Shown: positions 7,722 to 16,818 of the stretch, one piece after another | Numbering within the stretch: the first letter of the stretch is position 1 | Layout of the letters: each line of letters begins with the position of its first letter | NCBI RefSeq assembly: GCF_040712075.1 | Contig: NZ_JBFCVL010000001.1 | Coordinates: 503,501-567,500, forward strand | From: Fodinicurvata sp. EGI_FJ10296 | GTDB lineage: Bacteria; Pseudomonadota; Alphaproteobacteria; DSM-16000; Inquilinaceae | Reading direction: 5' to 3' | Length of the DNA: 64,000 nt | Notes under the pieces: model-generated | Told to the model about the DNA's origin: nothing | What the model saw: the letters and a program-made list of their open reading frames with translations, nothing else | The model's database searches: none | Program-made: the position numbers and the translations under genes

Positions 7722-9359
7722 TCAAGCTGCCTTTTTCCATATCAACCGTTTGACGTCCGACAACCGGACGCCGCCAAAGAGAGCGCCGGCCGCGAAATAG
7801 GTTGCAGCTCCCATTGCGACCAGTGCCATCAGGCCAATCGGCCCGGCCCAAAGCCCCGACGCCGTTCGCGCGCCGGCCTCGTCGCCCAGGGGTAGCCAAC
7901 TGCCCAGGCCGGTCAGGAGGGCGGTGGCGAGCAACGCAATGCCAAGGACGGCGCCAGCAGCGATCTGCCCCAGGATGCGCCGCCTGGTTTCCGCGTCCAG
8001 ACGAAACAGGCCCCGACGTCGCAGCCCCCGAACGAGAATGGCGACGTGAAGCCACGCGGTGAGGCCGGTGGCGAGAGCCAGACCGACATGCCCCAGATAC
8101 CGGATCAGGATCAGGCTGAGCGATATGTTCATGACTGTGGCCACGATGGCCACCTTGACCGGGCTGGCCGTATCCTGGCGGGCGAAATAGACCGTCGAGA
8201 AAACCTTGACCATCACATAGGCGGGAATTCCGATGCCGTAGGCCGCCAGCGCGAGGGCTGTCGCACGCGTGGCCTCGGCATCGAAGGCGCCCCGCTGGAA
8301 CAGGACAGTCAGGATCGGCTGCGGGATGACGATCAGCGCGACGGCCGATGGTATCGACAGCAGCAACGCAGCGTCGAGCGCGCGGTTCTGGGTCCGCAGG
8401 GCGGCGCTGGTATCTGCGGCTTCGACCTGGCGCGACAGCATGGGCAACAGGGCCGTTCCGATCGCGATTCCGATCACACCCAGCGGCAACTGATAGAGCC
8501 GGTCGGCATAGTACAAGTAGCTGATCGCGCCGGCTGGCAACAGGGACGCCAGCAGAATGTCGATGAATATGTTGATCTGGATGACTCCGGCGCCGAGAGC
8601 GCCGGGGGCCATCAAGCGAAACAGCTTGCGGATTCGGGCGTCAATTCGCGGGCGCGGCAGGCCCAGCCGGACACCGGCGCGGCGGCAGGCTTCGGCCAGC
8701 CACAGAAGCTGAACGATCCCCGCGATCAGGACGGCCCAGGCAAGGGCGTGGCCGACGGTCGCGACGATGCCCCACCCGATCAACGGCTCAGCGAGCAGCA
8801 GGGCCGCGATCAGGCACAGATTGAACAGGATCGGCGCGGCGGCGAAGGGCCCGTACCGACCGAGTGCATTCAGCACACCGCCCATCAAGGCGACCAGCGA
8901 CATCAGTATCAGATAGGGAAAGGTGACGCGGCCCAACGTCACCGCCAGGTCGAACCGCTCGGCATCGTCGACGAATCCCGGTGCAATCACGGTCATGATT
9001 GCCGGCATGGCGATCACCGCAAGGATCGTAAGCGGCAACAGAACGGCGATCATCACAGCCAACGCGCGTTCCGCGAAGGCCACCGCGGGGTCGATTCCCT
9101 TCGATTCCAGGTCGGCGGAAAACATCGGCACGAAGGACACACTGAACGCGCCTTCGGCGAACAGGCGGCGGAACAGATTGGGCAGCTTCAATGCAACGAA
9201 GAAGGCATCGGCCACGACGCCGGCACCGAGCATGGCGGCGGTCAGAATATCGCGCACGAACCCGGCGATGCGGCTCAGCATGGTGAGCCCGCCGACCGTT
9301 GCGATCGCCCGGATCAGCGTCGGGGACCGGCCACGAATTGAAGTGTCGGCGGGGGTCAT
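7722..9359 (-). CDS. murJ: Lipid II flippase MurJ
   Basis: A 545-residue polytopic protein of the MOP exporter superfamily. MurJ moves lipid II across the inner membrane for peptidoglycan synthesis. The N-terminal signature is present (LTMLSRIAGFVRDILTAAMLGAG and AFFVALKLPNLFRRLFAEGAFSVSFVP), including the conserved arginines of the central cavity region. About fourteen hydrophobic segments can be counted, as expected. The ATG overlaps the glnD stop by four bases (ATGA), so the two genes are one unit with glnD first, a linkage often seen in Rhodospirillales and Rhizobiales. Confidence 0.96.
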   Translation of the reverse strand: MTPADTSIRGRSPTLIRAIATVGGLTMLSRIAGFVRDILTAAMLGAGVVADAFFVALKLPNLFRRLFAEGAFSVSFVPMFSADLESKGIDPAVAFAERALAVMIAVLLPLTILAVIAMPAIMTVIAPGFVDDAERFDLAVTLGRVTFPYLILMSLVALMGGVLNALGRYGPFAAAPILFNLCLIAALLLAEPLIGWGIVATVGHALAWAVLIAGIVQLLWLAEACRRAGVRLGLPRPRIDARIRKLFRLMAPGALGAGVIQINIFIDILLASLLPAGAISYLYYADRLYQLPLGVIGIAIGTALLPMLSRQVEAADTSAALRTQNRALDAALLLSIPSAVALIVIPQPILTVLFQRGAFDAEATRATALALAAYGIGIPAYVMVKVFSTVYFARQDTASPVKVAIVATVMNISLSLILIRYLGHVGLALATGLTAWLHVAILVRGLRRRGLFRLDAETRRRILGQIAAGAVLGIALLATALLTGLGSWLPLGDEAGARTASGLWAGPIGLMALVAMGAATYFAAGALFGGVRLSDVKRLIWKKAA

Positions 9360-12298
9360 GGCTTTTGTGCCGTCTGACCCTGTGTCCCGGCAGGCATTCG
9401 GGGCCGCTTGCCCAGGCGCCGGCGCGCCGGACGCGTTGGCGCCGGTGCGGGCGGCACCGATCCGGGGTCGCCGTCGGCAAGCACCGCCGTCAGATGGCTT
9501 CGGATCTGTTCCAGCTTCGTTTCATTGGTGACCTTGAGGCCGAAAACATCCTTGACGTAGAAGACGTCGATGGCCCGTTCGCCAAAGGTCGAAATCTTGG
9601 CGCTGGATATCTGCAAAGCCATCCCGGACAGCGCACGCGTCAGATCGTACAGCAGTCCCGGACGGTCGCGGCCGTTGACCTCGATGACCGAATGCGTCCG
9701 GCTCGCGGCATTGTCGATCAGGACCCGCGGCTGAACCCGAAACACGTTCGTACGGGTCGGCAGACGCGACCGTTGACGCTCCAGTTCGGCGGTCGGGTCG
9801 ATCGTTCCTGCAAGGCAACGGGACACGGTATCGCTGAGAGAGGCCAACGCATCGGGATCGTCGAATGGCAGTGTGTCGGCGCCGCCCTGAACATTGAACA
9901 GATCGATGGCAAGTCCGGTGGTCAGTGTGAAAATCTTCGCATCGACGATGTTCGCCCCGGCGACGGCCAGCGCGCCGGCGACCCGCGCGATCAGGCCGGG
10001 GTGGTCCGGCGTCAGCACGGTCACTTCCGTCGTGCCCTGATCGCCGACCGGCCGAGCGTCGACGATCAGCGGATCGTCCTGCCGTTCGGCGCGGACGACC
10101 AGTGCGGCGTGCCGGCAATGAGTATCGGTGTCCAGCGACAGCCAATAGGGCGGGTATCCCTTTCCCAGAAATGCCGCAACGGCGTCGTCGCTCCATCCGG
10201 CGGCGGTGAGGCGGGTCCGGATCGCCTCGTGCGCGGCGTTCACCCGCGATTCGGTGCCCTCGAAGTCGAAACCGTCGGCGATCAGGTGCCGGGTCCGGTT
10301 GTAAAGCTGACCGAGAAGCGATCCCTTCCACCCGTTCCATCGACCCGGCCCGACGGCCCGGATGTCGGCGCAGGTCAGCACAAGAAGCAGGCGGAGGCGT
10401 TCGGCCGATTCAACCAGCCCGACGAAATCGCGCACCGTCTGGTCGTCCTCGATGTCCCGCTTCAAAGCGGTGTCGTTCATGGCCAGGTGATTGAGCACCA
10501 GCCACTCGACCGTCTCGGTTTCTTCCGTCGAAAGACCCAGCCGGGGGCAGAGTTTGCGGGCAACTTTCGCGCCCAGAACAGAATGATCGCCGCCACGGCC
10601 CTTGGCGATGTCGTGCAGCAGCATGGCCACGAACAGCGCCCGGCGCGATTTGATCGACGGGAAGACGCTGGTCGCCAGCGGCATCTCGTCCGCGATCGCA
10701 CCGTTTTCGATCCGGTGGAGGATGCCGATTGCGAACATCGTATGCTCATCGACGGTATAGACATGGTACATGTCGTATTGCATCTGGGCGACGACGCGGC
10801 CGAAATCGGGCAGGAAACGCGCCAGAACGCCGCTTTCGTTCATCCGCCGCAGCGCCTTCTCGGGGTCGTTGGGCGATGTCAGGATATCCAGGAACAGCGC
10901 GTTGGCGGCGGGGTCGTTGCGCAGCTTGTTGCCGATCAGTTTCAACGATCGCGTAATCGCCTTCAGCGCGGCCGGATGAATATCGAGATCCCGGTCCTGC
11001 GCAACGCGGAACAGCCGCAGCATGTCGATCGGTGTGTCGCGAAGATGCCGTTCGGAGGGAAATGTCAGGCGTTCGCGATCGACGACAAAGCCGTCGACTT
11101 CTTTGGCACCGCCGAGAAAAAACATGAAACGCCGGGGCTTGCGTCGGCTGTCGGCTTCCAGGGCGGCACAGAAGATGCGTGTAAGATCGCCGACATCCTT
11201 TGCGATCAGGAAATAGTGCTTCATGAACCGCTCGACGCCGCTGGCGCCGGCATGGTCGGTGTACCCCATCGCCGGTCCGATCTCGCGCTGAAGATCGAAG
11301 GTCAGCCGGTCTTCCTCGCGTCCGGTCAGATAGTGTAGATGGCAGCGCACGGCCCGGAAGAACGACAGGGCCTTGCGGAACCGGGCGGCTTCGTCGTCGT
11401 TCAGGACTCCGGCCGCCACCATGCCGTCGATATCCCGCACCTGAAAGAGATACTTGGCGATCCAGAACAGGCTCTGGAGGTCGCGCAGCCCGCCCTTTCC
11501 GTCCTTGACGTTTGGCTCCATCACGTAGCGGCTGTCGCCGAGTTTGCGATGGCGTGCGTCGCGTTCGGCCAGCTTGGCCTCGACGAAATCGGCCTTGCTG
11601 TCCGCGTCGACGATGTCCCGTTTGTATCGCTTGAAGAGCTCTTCGACCAGCGCCGGCTCGCCCCATAGCGGTCGGCATTCGAGCAGACTTGTGCGGATCG
11701 TCATGTCCGTTTTGCTCGTGCGAATGCAATCGTCGACGGATCTGACCGCATGGCCCACCCTGAGGCCGAGATCCCAAAGCAGATAGAGCATGAATTCCAC
11801 GACCTGCTCTACCCGTGGCGTGCGCTTGTAGGGAAGCAGGAAGAGCAGGTCGATATCGGATTTGGGTGCCAGTTCACCGCGGCCATAGCCGCCCAGCGCG
11901 ACAATGGCGAAGCGTTCGCCGGTCGTCGGATTGGGTGCGGGGAAGAGATGAAGGTCGGAAATATCAGCGAGCGTGCGGATGAGTTGGTCCAGAACATGCA
12001 CCCGGTTCCGGACGCAGTCGTCACCGGTGCCGAAATCATTCAGAAACCGATTGCGCACCTCGGATTCGCCGCTTTTCAGCGCCGCCTTCATCAGGCCGAG
12101 CAGCGCCTGTCGCCCTTTGCCCGTCCGGCACTTGTCGGGGCCGCCGCATTCGACCGTCCAATCCGCGATACGGCTCTTGAGCGCCGCTGCGTCCAGCAAA
12201 GCGTCGCCATTGCTGACCGGCGGCGGCGCCCAATCGCCGATGGCGGCCGGGAAAAGCTGTCCCTCGCCGTGGTCCGTCGGTCGGAAGAAATTGAACAT
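9356..12298 (-). CDS. glnD: Bifunctional uridylyltransferase / uridylyl-removing enzyme GlnD
   Basis: A 980-residue nitrogen sensor that uridylylates PII proteins when glutamine is low and removes UMP when it is high. In order: a nucleotidyltransferase domain with GYGRGELAPKSDIDLLFL (about residues 133-150), a PII-uridylyltransferase helical region, an HD domain with LHDIAKGRGGDHSVLGA (about 559-575) for the removing activity, and two C-terminal ACT domains (about 750-830 and 865-935) that sense glutamine. The length is slightly above the usual 900-950 because of a basic, Pro-rich C-terminal tail. All catalytic motifs appear intact. It is transcribed with murJ. Confidence 0.97.
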   Translation of the reverse strand: MFNFFRPTDHGEGQLFPAAIGDWAPPPVSNGDALLDAAALKSRIADWTVECGGPDKCRTGKGRQALLGLMKAALKSGESEVRNRFLNDFGTGDDCVRNRVHVLDQLIRTLADISDLHLFPAPNPTTGERFAIVALGGYGRGELAPKSDIDLLFLLPYKRTPRVEQVVEFMLYLLWDLGLRVGHAVRSVDDCIRTSKTDMTIRTSLLECRPLWGEPALVEELFKRYKRDIVDADSKADFVEAKLAERDARHRKLGDSRYVMEPNVKDGKGGLRDLQSLFWIAKYLFQVRDIDGMVAAGVLNDDEAARFRKALSFFRAVRCHLHYLTGREEDRLTFDLQREIGPAMGYTDHAGASGVERFMKHYFLIAKDVGDLTRIFCAALEADSRRKPRRFMFFLGGAKEVDGFVVDRERLTFPSERHLRDTPIDMLRLFRVAQDRDLDIHPAALKAITRSLKLIGNKLRNDPAANALFLDILTSPNDPEKALRRMNESGVLARFLPDFGRVVAQMQYDMYHVYTVDEHTMFAIGILHRIENGAIADEMPLATSVFPSIKSRRALFVAMLLHDIAKGRGGDHSVLGAKVARKLCPRLGLSTEETETVEWLVLNHLAMNDTALKRDIEDDQTVRDFVGLVESAERLRLLLVLTCADIRAVGPGRWNGWKGSLLGQLYNRTRHLIADGFDFEGTESRVNAAHEAIRTRLTAAGWSDDAVAAFLGKGYPPYWLSLDTDTHCRHAALVVRAERQDDPLIVDARPVGDQGTTEVTVLTPDHPGLIARVAGALAVAGANIVDAKIFTLTTGLAIDLFNVQGGADTLPFDDPDALASLSDTVSRCLAGTIDPTAELERQRSRLPTRTNVFRVQPRVLIDNAASRTHSVIEVNGRDRPGLLYDLTRALSGMALQISSAKISTFGERAIDVFYVKDVFGLKVTNETKLEQIRSHLTAVLADGDPGSVPPAPAPTRPARRRLGKRPRMPAGTQGQTAQKP

Positions 12299-12338: not shown

Positions 12339-13127
12339 CTAGCGGGGCTTTCGCATCGCCAACAGGGCTTCCCGGAGGATTTCCAGGACGGGCTTCAGCC
12401 GCTCGTCGACGGATTCGGCAATCAGGCGGCGCAACTCGTCCTCGGACAGGGTGCCGCCTGAGCCCGGAGCATCCGGCCCGAAACCCGGATCCGGTGACTC
12501 CGGCGGCGTTACGAACGCACCATCGATGCCGCCGCCCCAATCGAACGGGGAATCGGTGTCTTCCCGGTCCGAACCATTCCCGGCAATATCATTCGGCGAA
12601 AAACCATTCGGGACCGGTGCGCTCCCGACAAATCCATCGTCACCTGAATCGGCATCCGCCCAGACGTCGCCCGTGTCCGGCAGGACATGGGCTTCCGATG
12701 GCCCCCCAGCACCGTCCCCCCCAGCACCGTCCCCCGCCGTGTCTGCTTGCGGCATAACCGGCTGTTCCAGGAGAGGGCCATCACCGCGATGCGGGCTCGA
12801 CAATGACGGCAGCGCCGGAGCCGATGTCCGTCCGGACACCGTTTCCTCCAACGCGCGGCGCAAATCGCCCAGATGCGACTTGAGGACCCGGACATCCTCT
12901 TTCAGTGCCGTGACCTCGGCCGCCAAACCGACGGCGCTGCCGGGGGCGCCGCCGGAATTGCCGGTGACGGCGCCGGTTTCGGCATCATCCAGGAAAACCC
13001 GCCAGGTCCCGTCGTCTGCCTTGTATCCCCGAGCAGCGCCACGTTGCAGACGTTTTCTCAATGCCTCGACAGACAGACCGAGCGTACGGGATGCTGTCGT
13101 TATATCGACCGTGGCGTCAGTCGCCAT
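12339..13127 (-). CDS. Unrecognised helix-turn-helix protein with coiled coil and disordered linker
   Basis: A 262-residue protein I do not recognise beyond its parts. Residues about 1-50 look like an excisionase/MerR-type winged helix (VDITTASRTLGLSVEALRKRL, then GYKADDGTWRVFL as the wing). Residues about 65-95 are a likely coiled coil (EVTALKEDVRVLKSHLGDLRRALEE). A long acidic Gly/Pro/Ser segment (about 100-225) is probably disordered and contains a duplicated DGAGG from a 15-base tandem repeat near 12708-12735. The end is a predicted amphipathic helix (EDELRRLIAESVDERLKPVLEILREALLAM). The start is the ATG at 13127; the open frame reads on upstream past a low-quality region. It is divergent from another small DNA-binding-like gene and lies just upstream of glnD on the same strand. 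Confidence 0.72.
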   Translation of the reverse strand: MATDATVDITTASRTLGLSVEALRKRLQRGAARGYKADDGTWRVFLDDAETGAVTGNSGGAPGSAVGLAAEVTALKEDVRVLKSHLGDLRRALEETVSGRTSAPALPSLSSPHRGDGPLLEQPVMPQADTAGDGAGGDGAGGPSEAHVLPDTGDVWADADSGDDGFVGSAPVPNGFSPNDIAGNGSDREDTDSPFDWGGGIDGAFVTPPESPDPGFGPDAPGSGGTLSEDELRRLIAESVDERLKPVLEILREALLAMRKPR

Positions 13128-13202
13128 CAGGTAAAACCCTGTCCGGTTGTCTCGAATGTCCCGCCCGATATCATAACGATGTTGCGCCTCATGTCTAATA
13201 CG

Positions 13203-13222
13203 ATCAGCCTCTGATTGCTGAT
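13203..13222. promoter_or_regulatory. Dyad in shared promoter region of the divergent pair
   Basis: An inverted repeat ATCAGC-N8-GCTGAT lies midway in the 153-base space between the two divergent DNA-binding-like genes. The position would suit an operator bound by one of them. This is inference from symmetry and location only; the arms are short and no second copy was found nearby. Confidence 0.3.
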
Positions 13223-13280
13223 ACCGGCATGACCGGGTTCCGGGTCGGTACTGGACGGGTCCCATGAGATAGAGGGTGTC

Positions 13281-13685
13281 ATGGCGGATGACGGAAAGGA
13301 TCCCGTAGAGCAGCCCGACGGCCGGAGCGCCAACGCCCGCCGTGTGGCCCGTCACAAGGCGCGGCTGGCCGAATCCGGCTTGAAGCAGGTCAATATCCAG
13401 GCCCCGGTTGCGGCACACCCGATCCTCAAGGATCTCGGCCGCCGGCTGAAGGCAGGCCAGCCGATTGAAGAGGCGCTGTTCGAACTCGCCGCCCGGCACG
13501 CCCGTGCTCCACAATCGCCGGAGGCGGCCGGTGCTGTGTCGTCGAGGCCGCCCGATACCGAAAGGGGCAACGGGCTGACCGGACGGCTGGGGCGCCTGTT
13601 CAGAGGGCGAAGCCAGCGCGGAGAAGGCAGCGACCTGTCCGATGACCCCGGCAGAGATCCGGACCCCGGTCGAAGCGAGAACTAG
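13281..13685 (+). CDS. Small unrecognised protein with ribbon-helix-helix-like core
   Basis: A 134-residue basic protein of unknown function. The central part (about residues 17-70) reads as a very basic helix (ANARRVARHKARLAESG), a short strand (LKQVNIQAP) and two helices (ILKDLGRRLKAG, PIEEALFELAAR), the order expected of a ribbon-helix-helix DNA-binding fold. The rest is Pro/Gly/Arg-rich and probably disordered (GLTGRLGRLFRGRSQRG, then acidic repeats of DPGR). The start ATG has AGAGGGTG upstream. The stop codon overlaps the stop of mutS on the other strand, so the two genes are convergent with no room for a terminator. Coding is supported by its clean frame and ribosome site, but the family is not one I can name. 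Confidence 0.65.
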   Translation: MADDGKDPVEQPDGRSANARRVARHKARLAESGLKQVNIQAPVAAHPILKDLGRRLKAGQPIEEALFELAARHARAPQSPEAAGAVSSRPPDTERGNGLTGRLGRLFRGRSQRGEGSDLSDDPGRDPDPGRSEN

Positions 13686-16489
13686 TCAGCCTGGTCTGCT
13701 GCATCCGAGCCTTCCGATATCAGTTTCTTCAAACGGTACATTGCATCCAGGGCATCGCGCGGCGTCATCGCGTCCGGGTCGGCCTCGGCGACAAGGCGCC
13801 GGATGGCAGCAACCTGCGGGTCTTCCGCCGCGGCATCAGCGGGCTCGTCGGGTAATGAGCCGAGCGGTACTGAGCCGGGACCGGGTTCCGGAACCGGCGC
13901 CGTGGTGTCTTCTGACTCCAGCCCGGCGAAGAGCGGAAGTGCCGCGGCGTCGTTCTCGCGCTGTCCGGATCGTTCCAGTGTGTCCAGGACGGTGCGGGCG
14001 CGAGTCAGAACGGCATTCGGCAGTCCCGCCAGCTTGGCCACATGCAGTCCGTAGGATCGGTCGGCGGCCCCCTCGCGGACCTCGTGAAGGAACACGATGT
14101 CGCCCTTCCATTCCCGAACCGCCATCGAACGGCATGTCAACGCCTTGAGCCGGTCGGCCAGGGCGGTCAGTTCGTGATAGTGGGTGGCGAAAAGGGCGCG
14201 GCAGCGATTGCGGTCATGCAGATGCTCAACGGTGGCCCAGGCGATTGAAAGTCCGTCATAGGTCGATGTGCCTCGGCCGATCTCGTCCAGGACGACCAAC
14301 GACCGCGGCGTGGCCTGATGGAGAATTGCGGCCGTCTCGACCATTTCGACCATGAAGGTGGATCGGCCGCGCGCCAGATCGTCAGCGGCGCCGACGCGGC
14401 TGAACAATCTGTCGACGATGCCGATCTCGGCCTGATCGGCCGGCACATAACCCCCGATCTGCGCCATGATCGCGACCAGCGCGTTCTGACGCAGAAAGGT
14501 CGACTTGCCGGCCATGTTGGGTCCGGTCAGCAACCACAGACGCCGTGCCTGCGAAAGATCGCAATCATTGGCGACAAAAGTATCGCTGCTGCCGGCCAGG
14601 GCAGCCTCGACGACCGGATGGCGGCCCGAGACGATCCTGAACCGATGGCTCAGGTCCACTGTCGGACGGGTGTATCCCTGTTCCGCCGCGATTTCGGCGT
14701 GGGATGCAAAAACGTCGATCACGGCAAGTGCCGCCGCCATTTCCGCAACGCCGTCCGAGGCGGCGGTCACGGCGCCCGACAGTTGGGCGAACAAGTCGAG
14801 TTCCAGGGCGATGGCCCGGTCGCCCGCCTGGGCCAATGTCTTCTCCATTTCGGCCAGTTCGGTGGTCGTGAACCGGACTGCCGACGCGAGAGTCTGGCGA
14901 TGGATGAAGGTCTGGGCCGCCGGTTCGGCCGTGAGCTTTTCGGCGTTCGTCGGCGACACCTCGATAAAATAGCCCAGAACGTTGTTGTGCTTGATTTTCA
15001 GCGTTCCGACGCCGCTAGCCTCGGCATAGCGATGCTGCAGGCCGGCGATCAGGCGCCTCCCTTCGTCGCGGGCTGTCCGCGTCTCGTCCAGATCCGGCGC
15101 GAAGCCCGGCGCAATGAAACCGCCGTCACGGGCCAGAACCGGAAGCGTCTGGGACAATGCCCTGGCCAGCTTGTCCATCAGATCGTCCAGCCCCGTCAGC
15201 CGGGACTGCGCCCTTGCCACTGCGTCGGGCAGCAGGTCGAGCCGGGGCATCGCCAGCAGGGTCGAGAGGCGCTGTGCCCCGCTCAGCCCGTCACGGATGG
15301 CGGCGAGATCGCGGGGGCCGCCGCGTCCGATCGTCAGCCGGGACAGGGCGCGTTCCATGTCCGGGATCGCGCGCAGGATCTCGCGCAGGTCGATCCGCAG
15401 ATTACCGTCGTCGACGAAAAGCTGAACCGCGTCCAGCCGGCTGTTTATGGCCGCGGGATCGGTCGATGGCGCGGCGAGGTGCTGGGCCAGCAGCCGCGCC
15501 CCCGGCCCGGTGATCGTCCGGTCGAGGGTGGCAAGAAGACTGCCCGACCGCTCTCCGGACTGATTGCGGGTCAGTTCCAGACTGCGCCGTGTTGCCGCGT
15601 CAATCTCCATGGTGGCCCCGTCCGCACGGCGCTCCGGCGGGCACAGATGCGGCAGATGGCCTTGCTGGGTAAGGTCGATATATCCGACCAAAGCGCCGCA
15701 TGCGGCAATCTCGCAGCGGTCGAAGGTGCCATAGGCGTCCAGCGTCTCGACCCCGTAAAGGGTGCAGAGCCGGTGAAGCGCGGACTCGCTGTTGAAGCGG
15801 GCCGCTGGCAGCAGCGTTACGCGGGAATCGCGCGGTTCAAGAATAGAGTGGATGTCGGCGTCCTGGCGCAAACTGTCGGCGATCAGGATTTCGCCCGGAT
15901 CGAGACGGGCAAGTACGCTGTCCAGATGCTTGACGTCAGTGATCTCCAGCATCAGCCGGCCGACGGTGATGTCCGCTGCCGCGACACCAAACCGGCCACC
16001 AACGCGGGCGATGGCGACCAGATTGTTTGCCGCGCGGCTTTCCAGCAGCGTCTCCTCGGTCACGGTGCCGGGGGTTACGATCCTCACCACCTCACGGCGG
16101 ACCAGCGTCTTGCCCGATCGTTTTTTGGCTTCAGCCGGCGATTCGACCTGATCGCAGATGGCGATCCGGAATCCCTGCCGGATCAGGCGGGCCAGGTAGC
16201 TCTCATGGGCATGCGCCGGCACGCCTGCCATCGGAATTTCGCCACCGCCGTGCTGGCCGCGCCGTGTCAGTGTAATGTCCAGCGCCCGGGCGGCTTTCAC
16301 GGCATCATCGAAAAAAAGCTCGTAGAAATCGCCCATCCGGAAAAACACCAGGCAATCGGGATGTGCGGCCTTCGCGTCCAGATACTGGGCCATCATCGGA
16401 CTGGCGTTGTCCGTCTGGCGGGGCGCGTCGACACCTTGCGGCCCGACCTCGTGGGATGATTCCGTCGGTGATTTTGCTGTGTCGGTCAT
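13682..16489 (-). CDS. mutS: DNA mismatch repair protein MutS
   Basis: A 935-residue mismatch-recognition ATPase. The mismatch-binding Phe-x-Glu motif is in the early segment FFRMGDFYELFFDDA. Further on are the connector and core/clamp regions, Walker A (LLTGPNMAGKSTFLRQ, about residue 646), Walker B and signature (LVVLDEIGRGTSTYDGLS) and the conserved FATHYHELT. I chose the ATG at 16489 (MTDTAKSP...), which gives a short extra N-terminal leader of about 30 residues before the conserved part; the ribosome site is weak, so a later start (MMAQYLDAK) is possible. Its stop overlaps that of the small basic protein on the plus strand. It is divergent from maeB. Confidence 0.97.
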   Translation of the reverse strand: MTDTAKSPTESSHEVGPQGVDAPRQTDNASPMMAQYLDAKAAHPDCLVFFRMGDFYELFFDDAVKAARALDITLTRRGQHGGGEIPMAGVPAHAHESYLARLIRQGFRIAICDQVESPAEAKKRSGKTLVRREVVRIVTPGTVTEETLLESRAANNLVAIARVGGRFGVAAADITVGRLMLEITDVKHLDSVLARLDPGEILIADSLRQDADIHSILEPRDSRVTLLPAARFNSESALHRLCTLYGVETLDAYGTFDRCEIAACGALVGYIDLTQQGHLPHLCPPERRADGATMEIDAATRRSLELTRNQSGERSGSLLATLDRTITGPGARLLAQHLAAPSTDPAAINSRLDAVQLFVDDGNLRIDLREILRAIPDMERALSRLTIGRGGPRDLAAIRDGLSGAQRLSTLLAMPRLDLLPDAVARAQSRLTGLDDLMDKLARALSQTLPVLARDGGFIAPGFAPDLDETRTARDEGRRLIAGLQHRYAEASGVGTLKIKHNNVLGYFIEVSPTNAEKLTAEPAAQTFIHRQTLASAVRFTTTELAEMEKTLAQAGDRAIALELDLFAQLSGAVTAASDGVAEMAAALAVIDVFASHAEIAAEQGYTRPTVDLSHRFRIVSGRHPVVEAALAGSSDTFVANDCDLSQARRLWLLTGPNMAGKSTFLRQNALVAIMAQIGGYVPADQAEIGIVDRLFSRVGAADDLARGRSTFMVEMVETAAILHQATPRSLVVLDEIGRGTSTYDGLSIAWATVEHLHDRNRCRALFATHYHELTALADRLKALTCRSMAVREWKGDIVFLHEVREGAADRSYGLHVAKLAGLPNAVLTRARTVLDTLERSGQRENDAAALPLFAGLESEDTTAPVPEPGPGSVPLGSLPDEPADAAAEDPQVAAIRRLVAEADPDAMTPRDALDAMYRLKKLISEGSDAADQAD

Positions 16490-16818
16490 GATCCGGGCGT
16501 GAGCTCGCAGTCTATAGCGATGACAAGGGGGGCAATGGCAGGGATTGGAATCGGTCAGCGCGAACCTATCACGGTCGTCCTGTTCGCCAAACACGGCAGA
16601 GCGCCAACCGCTTCCAAGAAGTTGTCGTCGGGGTACAACCATAAGTCCATTCGGTTATTGAACCGAGACGTCGCTCGATCCCGGTTTTGCCTTGACGAAT
16701 CCCGGTGCGATCCTGCCAATTTGGAGAACTGCCCACACCGGCCGAAGGTTTGTCTGCTTTCGGCGGGTATTCCCATCTTTTGCACCGACAAGAAACAAGG
16801 TTAGGGAGACGACGGTTC
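16490..16818. other. Intergenic region between mutS and maeB
   Basis: These 329 bases separate two divergent genes and hold no convincing gene. They contain a small perfect hairpin TCGGTT-ATTG-AACCGA (16651-16666) and a second dyad GCCGAA-N12-TTCGGC (16741-16764) in what should be the maeB leader. A TTGACG lies near 16690, but no good -10 hexamer stands at the right distance, so the maeB promoter is unresolved. No tRNA-like or known riboswitch pattern was recognised. Confidence 0.5.

Follow-up and report, generated by a model that had tools for sequence, protein, structure and literature searches.

Two small divergent genes, here called A and B, occupy the junction between mutS and glnD in the present genome, and they are most likely an autoregulated pair of regulators. 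This explanation is the best one because two DNA-binding-like genes lie head to head and have a control region in common, which carries a recurrent promoter-like element. What was seen here comprises the two genes, the architecture predicted for them, their conservation and linkage, the selection acting in one genus and the common element. A fuller proposal, that A and B are divergent autoregulated chromosomal DNA-binding regulators, which are older than the genera that carry them and which also set the level of glnD, is put forward tentatively, with somewhat less than an even chance of being right.

The window, i.e., the whole stretch of 64 kb that was analysed, has the following features at this locus.

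9356..12298, minus strand: glnD (NCBIfam), 40 bases downstream of A and on the same strand as A
12339..13127, minus strand: gene A, 262 aa, winged-helix coiled-coil protein
12351..12443, minus strand: C-terminal helix of A, residues 229-259 (model and alignment)
12444..12824, minus strand: disordered linker of A, residues 102-228 (model and alignment of relatives)
12825..12935, minus strand: coiled coil of A, residues 65-101 (AlphaFold2 model)
12987..13115, minus strand: winged helix-turn-helix of A, residues 5-47 (alignment, model and fold neighbours)
13128..13280, no strand: shared control region between the start codons of A and B, 153 bases
13170..13197, minus strand: promoter-like site for A, TAGACA-16 nt-TATGAT (10/12, a consensus match only)
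13190..13198, minus strand: YTAGACAYG element, single copy in the 64-kb window
13203..13222, no strand: dyad ATCAGC-N8-GCTGAT (exact; not conserved)
13281..13685, plus strand: gene B, 134 aa, ribbon-helix-helix-like, with a VapB-related core
13329..13502, plus strand: basic helix and ribbon-helix-helix-like core of B, residues 17-74 (model and profile match)
13682..16642, minus strand: mutS ORF (bounds of the ORF, not a fixed start; NCBIfam), convergent with B

According to the ORF coordinates, A and B diverge around 153 bases at the mutS-glnD junction, and the stop codons of B and mutS overlap. The earlier note on this DNA had described the same arrangement; both ORFs were found at those positions, NCBIfam names the flanking genes as it did, and an empty junction in six of 17 genomes agrees with its view that two unrelated DNA-binding-like genes are set between glnD and mutS. 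The glnD product is a [protein-PII] uridylyltransferase (1259 bits against a cut-off of 959), the MutS flank scores 996 bits against a cut-off of 480, and MurJ and then TrpS lie beyond glnD (all NCBIfam). The GC3 values are 0.69 for A and 0.76 for B, and those of mutS and glnD are 0.75 and 0.77. Scans of the 64-kb window for tRNA genes and Rfam families gave no matches. No paper on this glnD/mutS locus was found in the literature, as far as titles or the beginnings of abstracts indicate. Conservation in relatives, together with the low dN/dS values of 0.14 (A) and 0.11 (B) described below, argues that A and B are real genes.

Distribution of A and B in the host order

Seventeen genomes of the host order, which belongs to the alphaproteobacteria, were sampled. 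A profile of the head of A found A in seven of them (98-121 bits), and the B profile gave strong matches in five (140-267 bits); weaker matches of the B profile (25-36 bits) in G001, G005, G007 and G011 belong to other proteins. The carriers of both genes, namely G000 (the present genome), G003, G005, G007 and G012, span four genera (g1, g4, g6 with two genomes, and g8), and each of them has A and B in divergent orientation at the mutS-glnD junction. Six genomes (G002, G006, G011, G013, G015 and G016) have an empty mutS-glnD junction, with gaps of 9 to 367 bases by the starts considered. G001 has no A, and its glnD lies upstream of mutS. G008, G010 and G014, which have no A, were left out of this count because of contig ends or a gene that could not be located. 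When a collection of species genomes was scanned with patterns derived from A, six loci were recovered, matching the six relatives. In a class-wide sample of 385 genomes, the A profile had at least 10 matches, four of them in the order (98-121 bits) and at least six outside it (24-29 bits), and the B profile had at least 13, three of them in the order. Up to 16 candidates per genome were scored for A and up to 9 for B, so that some weak relatives may have escaped. As far as these searches reach, the pairing and placement of A and B appear to be specific to the host order.

The dN/dS values come from G005 and G012 of genus g6, the only pair of genomes close enough for the measurement, between which the 252 intergenic bases align gap-free at 72% identity. 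By these ratios (0.14 for A and 0.11 for B), both genes are under purifying selection in this genus. G012 is placed in the family of the window, and its genome has 9% contamination. Furthermore, a record titled 'Anaerolineae bacterium' (L024, JANQQD010000390.1, 29752 bases) contains the block mutS-B-A-glnD-murJ-trpS in a form much like the one in L026, with DNA identities of 90% for A and 86% for B; this record is probably mislabelled or a mixed bin.

In six of the seven genomes with A, glnD follows A on the same strand; in the seventh (G009), the contig ends before this can be seen. The gap between A and glnD is 40 bases here as against at least 146 in G007, which was counted against the regulator pair, and thus co-transcription of A and glnD is not certain.

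One possible explanation other than an autoregulated pair is that A and B are two independent small regulators which share the intergenic region by chance, B being dispensable. Two of the seven genomes with A have no B, and this too was counted against the regulator pair: in G004, A stands before glnD and mutS is on another contig, and in G009, A and mutS are on one contig with an ORF without a Pfam match between them. The B of the window, moreover, has no GGWRAAxIRRLL-like C-terminal motif, which is present in the B of four relatives. However, all five close B homologues are head to head with A, none having been found without it, and the purifying selection in G005 and G012 extends to B. Independence of the two genes is therefore considered unlikely. 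The earlier note had held that the finding of each protein alone in relatives would speak against a pair; this was seen for A (two genomes) and not for B (none of five). Conservation beside mutS, which it had proposed to check, was found for the pair in five of the 17 genomes, with A lacking its partner in the two just described. Since the divergent pair is kept in those five genomes, the self-regulated pair that the earlier note had suggested is plausible.

Architecture and kinship of the two proteins

A was modelled by AlphaFold2 using seven homologues. Residues 5-47 form a strand-helix-helix-strand-strand arrangement (block pLDDT 77-95, with block means of 92-95 for residues 11-40), and residues 102-228 are unstructured and of low confidence. 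The winged helix, coiled coil, linker and C-terminal helix that had been read from the sequence earlier were all matched by the model. In the alignment of homologues, the recognition region is nearly invariant (E..RKRLQRG...G.KA..G.WRV..D), and the last part of the C-terminal helix can be aligned in all six relatives, including the two without B. The long linker is found only in the A of this genome, and the A proteins of the six relatives are 134-169 aa by the starts used. A short in-frame duplication in the linker (GDGAGGDGAGG, window 12700-12740) and the about 100 residues by which it is longer than those of the relatives suggest that the linker was expanded in this lineage.

In the fold comparison, the model of the A head resembled BldC (Z 7.4, rmsd 3.0, 55 aligned), Xis of the phage Pukovnik (Z 6.4, rmsd 2.8, 52 aligned), Xis of Tn916 (Z 5.6, rmsd 3.2, 52 aligned) and RdfS (Z 5.2, rmsd 4.2, 53 aligned), and further neighbours were CarH and, among other proteins like MerR, RacA and GlnR/TnrA. 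Such Z-scores are middling and call for caution, but the neighbours listed are alike in kind; Foldseek gave weak E-values (0.043 at best), and the identity of the head to BldC/Xis/MerR-type winged helices is 7-22%. The head is predicted from the model to be of the excisionase/BldC/MerR winged-helix kind. Besides the head and the coiled coil, the model contains the low-confidence linker and one helix, and no folded effector domain.

HTH_17 (PF12728) was the commonest Pfam match of the A family, found in six of the seven members at E <=1 (best 1.6e-4); unlike these six, the A of the window was not matched by it. The A of G003 scored 24.6 bits with TIGR01764 (cut-off 28.8), and A reached no curated cut-off of the excisionase/HTH_17 models (PF12728 and TIGR01764). 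An integrase, as would stand beside a functional excisionase, is not among the genes next to A (glnD on one side, B and then mutS on the other). The A of the window had no NCBIfam match and a single match in PHROGs (E 0.28), and the A proteins of two relatives matched a MerR-like regulator there (E 1.4e-4 and 2.6e-5). PADLOC gave no match for A or B of the window and a weak head match (mad1) for the A of two relatives. A sequence search of the PDB with A returned mostly coiled-coil proteins, over the coiled-coil segment. In Pfam, the best E-values for A and B of the window were 0.079 and 0.12, and none was above the cut-off. Thus the earlier statement that neither protein matches a nameable family holds as far as cut-offs are concerned, but the A head is of the predicted excisionase/BldC/MerR kind, and the core of B is related to VapB-type antitoxins.

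The position of A just upstream of glnD in six of the seven genomes, and its fold similarity to GlnR and TnrA (Z 4.8 to 4.3), suggest another reading, in which A is a GlnR/TnrA-like nitrogen-status regulator of glnD whose tail helix senses a partner protein. According to a paper on BldC (PMC5859096), GlnR and TnrA have a MerR-like winged helix-turn-helix and lack a coiled coil, and their C-terminal regions make contact with glutamine synthetase. However, the head of A is only 7-15% identical to those of GlnR/TnrA, A has the coiled coil that these proteins lack, and 17 other entries score equally well or better as fold neighbours. We regard this reading as rather unlikely.

In the model of B, the helices at residues 17-31, 43-57 and 62-74 fit a ribbon-helix-helix core, although the confidence is low (mean pLDDT 64) and the strand-like segment forms no strand in the monomer. 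Of the ribbon-helix-helix-like core claimed earlier, the helices thus stand and the strand does not appear. Foldseek with the B model gave nothing at E 0.001, and the putative assignment draws mainly on kinship with antitoxins. Residues 18-65 of B matched a VapB-like set in a profile-profile comparison (hhalign; probability 97%, E 3.9e-11, 48 columns), and the common core (alignment A8) is RV.RH....G...V.V..P..........A..LR. The distant B relatives were collected with the B profile from the order and the class sample. A PIN (VapC-like) gene directly adjoins eight of these 14 (one cut by a contig end), and in the other six loci no PIN gene was found by tblastn with four of the eight PIN genes as queries; Pfam confirmed PIN in the three genes scanned (52-62 bits). 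Since PIN genes adjoin eight of the 14, the distant relatives are, on the evidence of their neighbourhood, VapB-type antitoxins. The same four queries gave no tblastn hit in the 64-kb window or L015-L019, and a single weak one in L014 (E 1e-4), which is over 5 kb away from B. In type II antitoxins, the toxin is likely bound by the C-terminal half; neither B nor its four close homologues have this half of the distant relatives (ELVAFLRASPL...ERDRS.GR). A MazE-like antitoxin model (PF11455) weakly matched four of six B members (best E 0.01), including the B of the window (residues 20-39, 12.8 bits against a gathering score of 22). The PDB sequence search with B found two designed proteins over 22 positions (E 1e-4), the other four matches having E-values of 0.66 or worse.

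In two genomes of one genus, VapB-like/VapC pairs (L076 5428-6150 and L078 5229-5951) adjoin the same gene, whose product we take, from its sequence, to be undecaprenyl-diphosphatase-like. Their VapB-like proteins matched no Pfam or NCBIfam model above the cut-off, and this VapB-like type seems to be unmodelled in these libraries.

B could also be a working orphan antitoxin that neutralises the VapC toxins of incoming elements, and a role as anti-addiction modules has been proposed for orphan antitoxins (PMC7354431). The PIN/VapC genes beside eight of the 14 distant relatives are in keeping with this. However, B has no conserved C-terminal half, the likely toxin-binding part, and the profile match is confined to residues 18-65; such a function is very unlikely.

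A chromosome organiser like RacA or KfrA, with a winged helix, a coiled coil and a tail that anchors it elsewhere, would have its parts in the order seen in A, RacA is among the fold neighbours (Z 4.8), and KfrA is described as a DNA-binding, oligomerising coiled-coil protein (PMC7783346). However, the coiled coil of A has only about 37 residues, no sequence match is above the cut-offs, and the immediate neighbours include no partition gene, so that we give this possibility very little credence. In each of the five pair loci, glnD and mutS directly flank the pair and no partition NTPase adjoins it; the partition-like system suggested earlier is not supported by these neighbours.

The shared control region and the proposed mechanism

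The earlier note drew attention to the dyad ATCAGC-N8-GCTGAT. It is present exactly at 13203-13222, and with up to one mismatch the pattern occurs twice in the window as against a shuffle mean of 0.20, a comparison for which the dyad was chosen after the fact; inverted repeats are common near it (24 pairs of at least 6 bases within 601 bases). The four other pair loci contain no half-site, and their best matches of the same spacing have 4 to 6 mismatches of 12. The dyad was rejected as an operator because it is not conserved in these loci.

Sites of the TAGACA-16-TATGAT type occur three times in 1.6 kb, as against a shuffle mean of 0.1. Each of the five control regions holds a single YTAGACAYG, which was counted in favour of the regulator pair, and five further copies lie outside them in 122 kb (the window and the four pair loci): two in L014 (16 kb), three in L018 (13 kb), and none in the rest of the window, L016 and L017. 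It overlaps the -35 element of the promoter-like site of A in the window; in G005 and G012, as read by eye, it is inside a conserved block before B (TAGACA-17-TAGCGT), which looks like the promoter of B. The element points toward A in some genomes and toward B in others, and this was counted against the regulator pair, as were the exact 6-base words in common, which 68 of 500 shuffles also reach and which are not significant. There is no exact word of at least 7 bases common to all control regions; when one mismatch is allowed, the best 8-, 9- and 10-base consensus was reached by 2, 4 and 8 of 200 shuffles. The word and consensus shuffles used four loci, G012 being left out as a near relative of G005. 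The degenerate form YTAGACAYG was chosen after the sequences had been seen, and its significance appears modest.

With up to two mismatches, the palindrome CATGTCTAGACATG was above its reversed control in G000 (8:4), G005 (7:3), G007 (7:4), G012 (12:7) and G001 (3:2), and not in others (1:1, 1:1, 2:2, and 0:3 in G006 and G011). The exact core TGTCTAGACA, derived from the YTAGACAYG element, is not enriched in the 17 genomes (10 places vs 13 for the reversed control), a result that was also counted against the regulator pair, and 11 of the 16 sites looked at fall inside a script-called ORF; for these reasons, the idea of a genome-wide regulon was dropped. In G007, the three further copies of YTAGACAYG in L018 (7646-7654, 7811-7824 and 8803) are near the start of mutS, upstream of mutS (with TGTCTAGACA) and within a malic-enzyme gene, and they may represent a candidate mutS operator in this genome. 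One copy in L014 is at the end of mutS. TAGACA is absent from the stretches upstream of mutS in the window, L014, L017, L015, L032, L039 and L088.

In the proposed regulator pair, A would bind DNA via its excisionase/BldC/MerR-type winged helix and oligomerise via the coiled coil and the C-terminal helix, and B would be a dimeric ribbon-helix-helix repressor-like protein, with a VapB-type core and without a toxin partner. Both would act on the shared 153-base region (the promoter-like site of A and YTAGACAYG), and they would set their own levels and the level of glnD, directly downstream of A. A is likely the main regulator, heading the glnD unit, with B as a modulator, since in G004, which has no B and carries mutS elsewhere, A is still found with glnD. 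We infer DNA binding, autoregulation, glnD co-transcription and contact between A and B, and with them the role of the two proteins, whose parts are both of known kinds and whose families are unnamed in the libraries searched. A farther-reaching possibility, that A and B constitute a new two-protein module gating glnD transcription as a lineage-specific tuning of the PII nitrogen signal, is quite doubtful.

If the regulator pair is confirmed, the DNA-binding core of a toxin-antitoxin system would have been turned into a chromosomal regulator and paired with a winged-helix coiled-coil family that reaches no cut-off in the libraries searched. Furthermore, there would be a lineage-specific input into GlnD, which acts as a sensor high up in the nitrogen control of bacteria. 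If it is not confirmed, two family definitions and the mapped presence or absence at the mutS-glnD junction would still be gained.

History of the junction and comparison with known systems

A FastTree phylogeny of mutS and glnD from 20 genomes, for which partial rows were kept, mixes carriers with non-carriers, and the carriers are not one clade. G000 is grouped with G006, which has an empty junction (support 0.82), G003, G005, G012 and G007 group together (0.87), and G004, with A only, is grouped with the empty genus g3 (0.84), G009 being placed elsewhere; the deep nodes are weak (0.28-0.31). A single recent insertion of the pair is not supported, as the carriers are not one clade on this tree. 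The simpler reading of the tree would be that the pair was ancestral at the junction and that B or both genes were lost repeatedly; repeated gain is a possible alternative.

In another family, an LtrA-family gene fills the mutS-glnD junction (G057, L089 3870-5120), and thus the junction accepts different inserts. This gene, the resemblance of the A head to the Xis of a phage and of Tn916, and the phage integrase and head-tail connector gene adjoining the closest B relative outside the order among the class-sample matches listed (L072, 47 bits) would suit remains of a mobile element, also suggested earlier, with A as the excisionase and B as the repressor of the element. However, A and B alone fill the junction, except for an extra 123-aa ORF in G007, viral contigs yielded no relative in pattern-limited scans, plasmid scans gave only weak, partial hits in two records each (E 0.01 at best), the GC3 values of A and B are near those of mutS and glnD, and the carriers are on separate branches; as a recent event this origin is largely refuted, and it is the least probable of the readings weighed here.

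Among known systems, BldC and Xis are tiny proteins without the coiled coil and tail of A, and MerR regulators have an effector domain, unlike the model of A. RacA and KfrA share with A a DNA-binding head followed by a coiled coil, which is short in A; their neighbourhood differs from that of A. GlnR and TnrA have a MerR-like head and a flexible C-terminal part, as A does, and the link of A to nitrogen control is by neighbourhood only; the coiled coil sets A apart from them. As for B, the match to the MazE-like antitoxins of PF11455 is weak and below the gathering score. The C-terminal half and the PIN/VapC neighbour of the VapB-type antitoxins (A8) are missing for B, but the core is the same.
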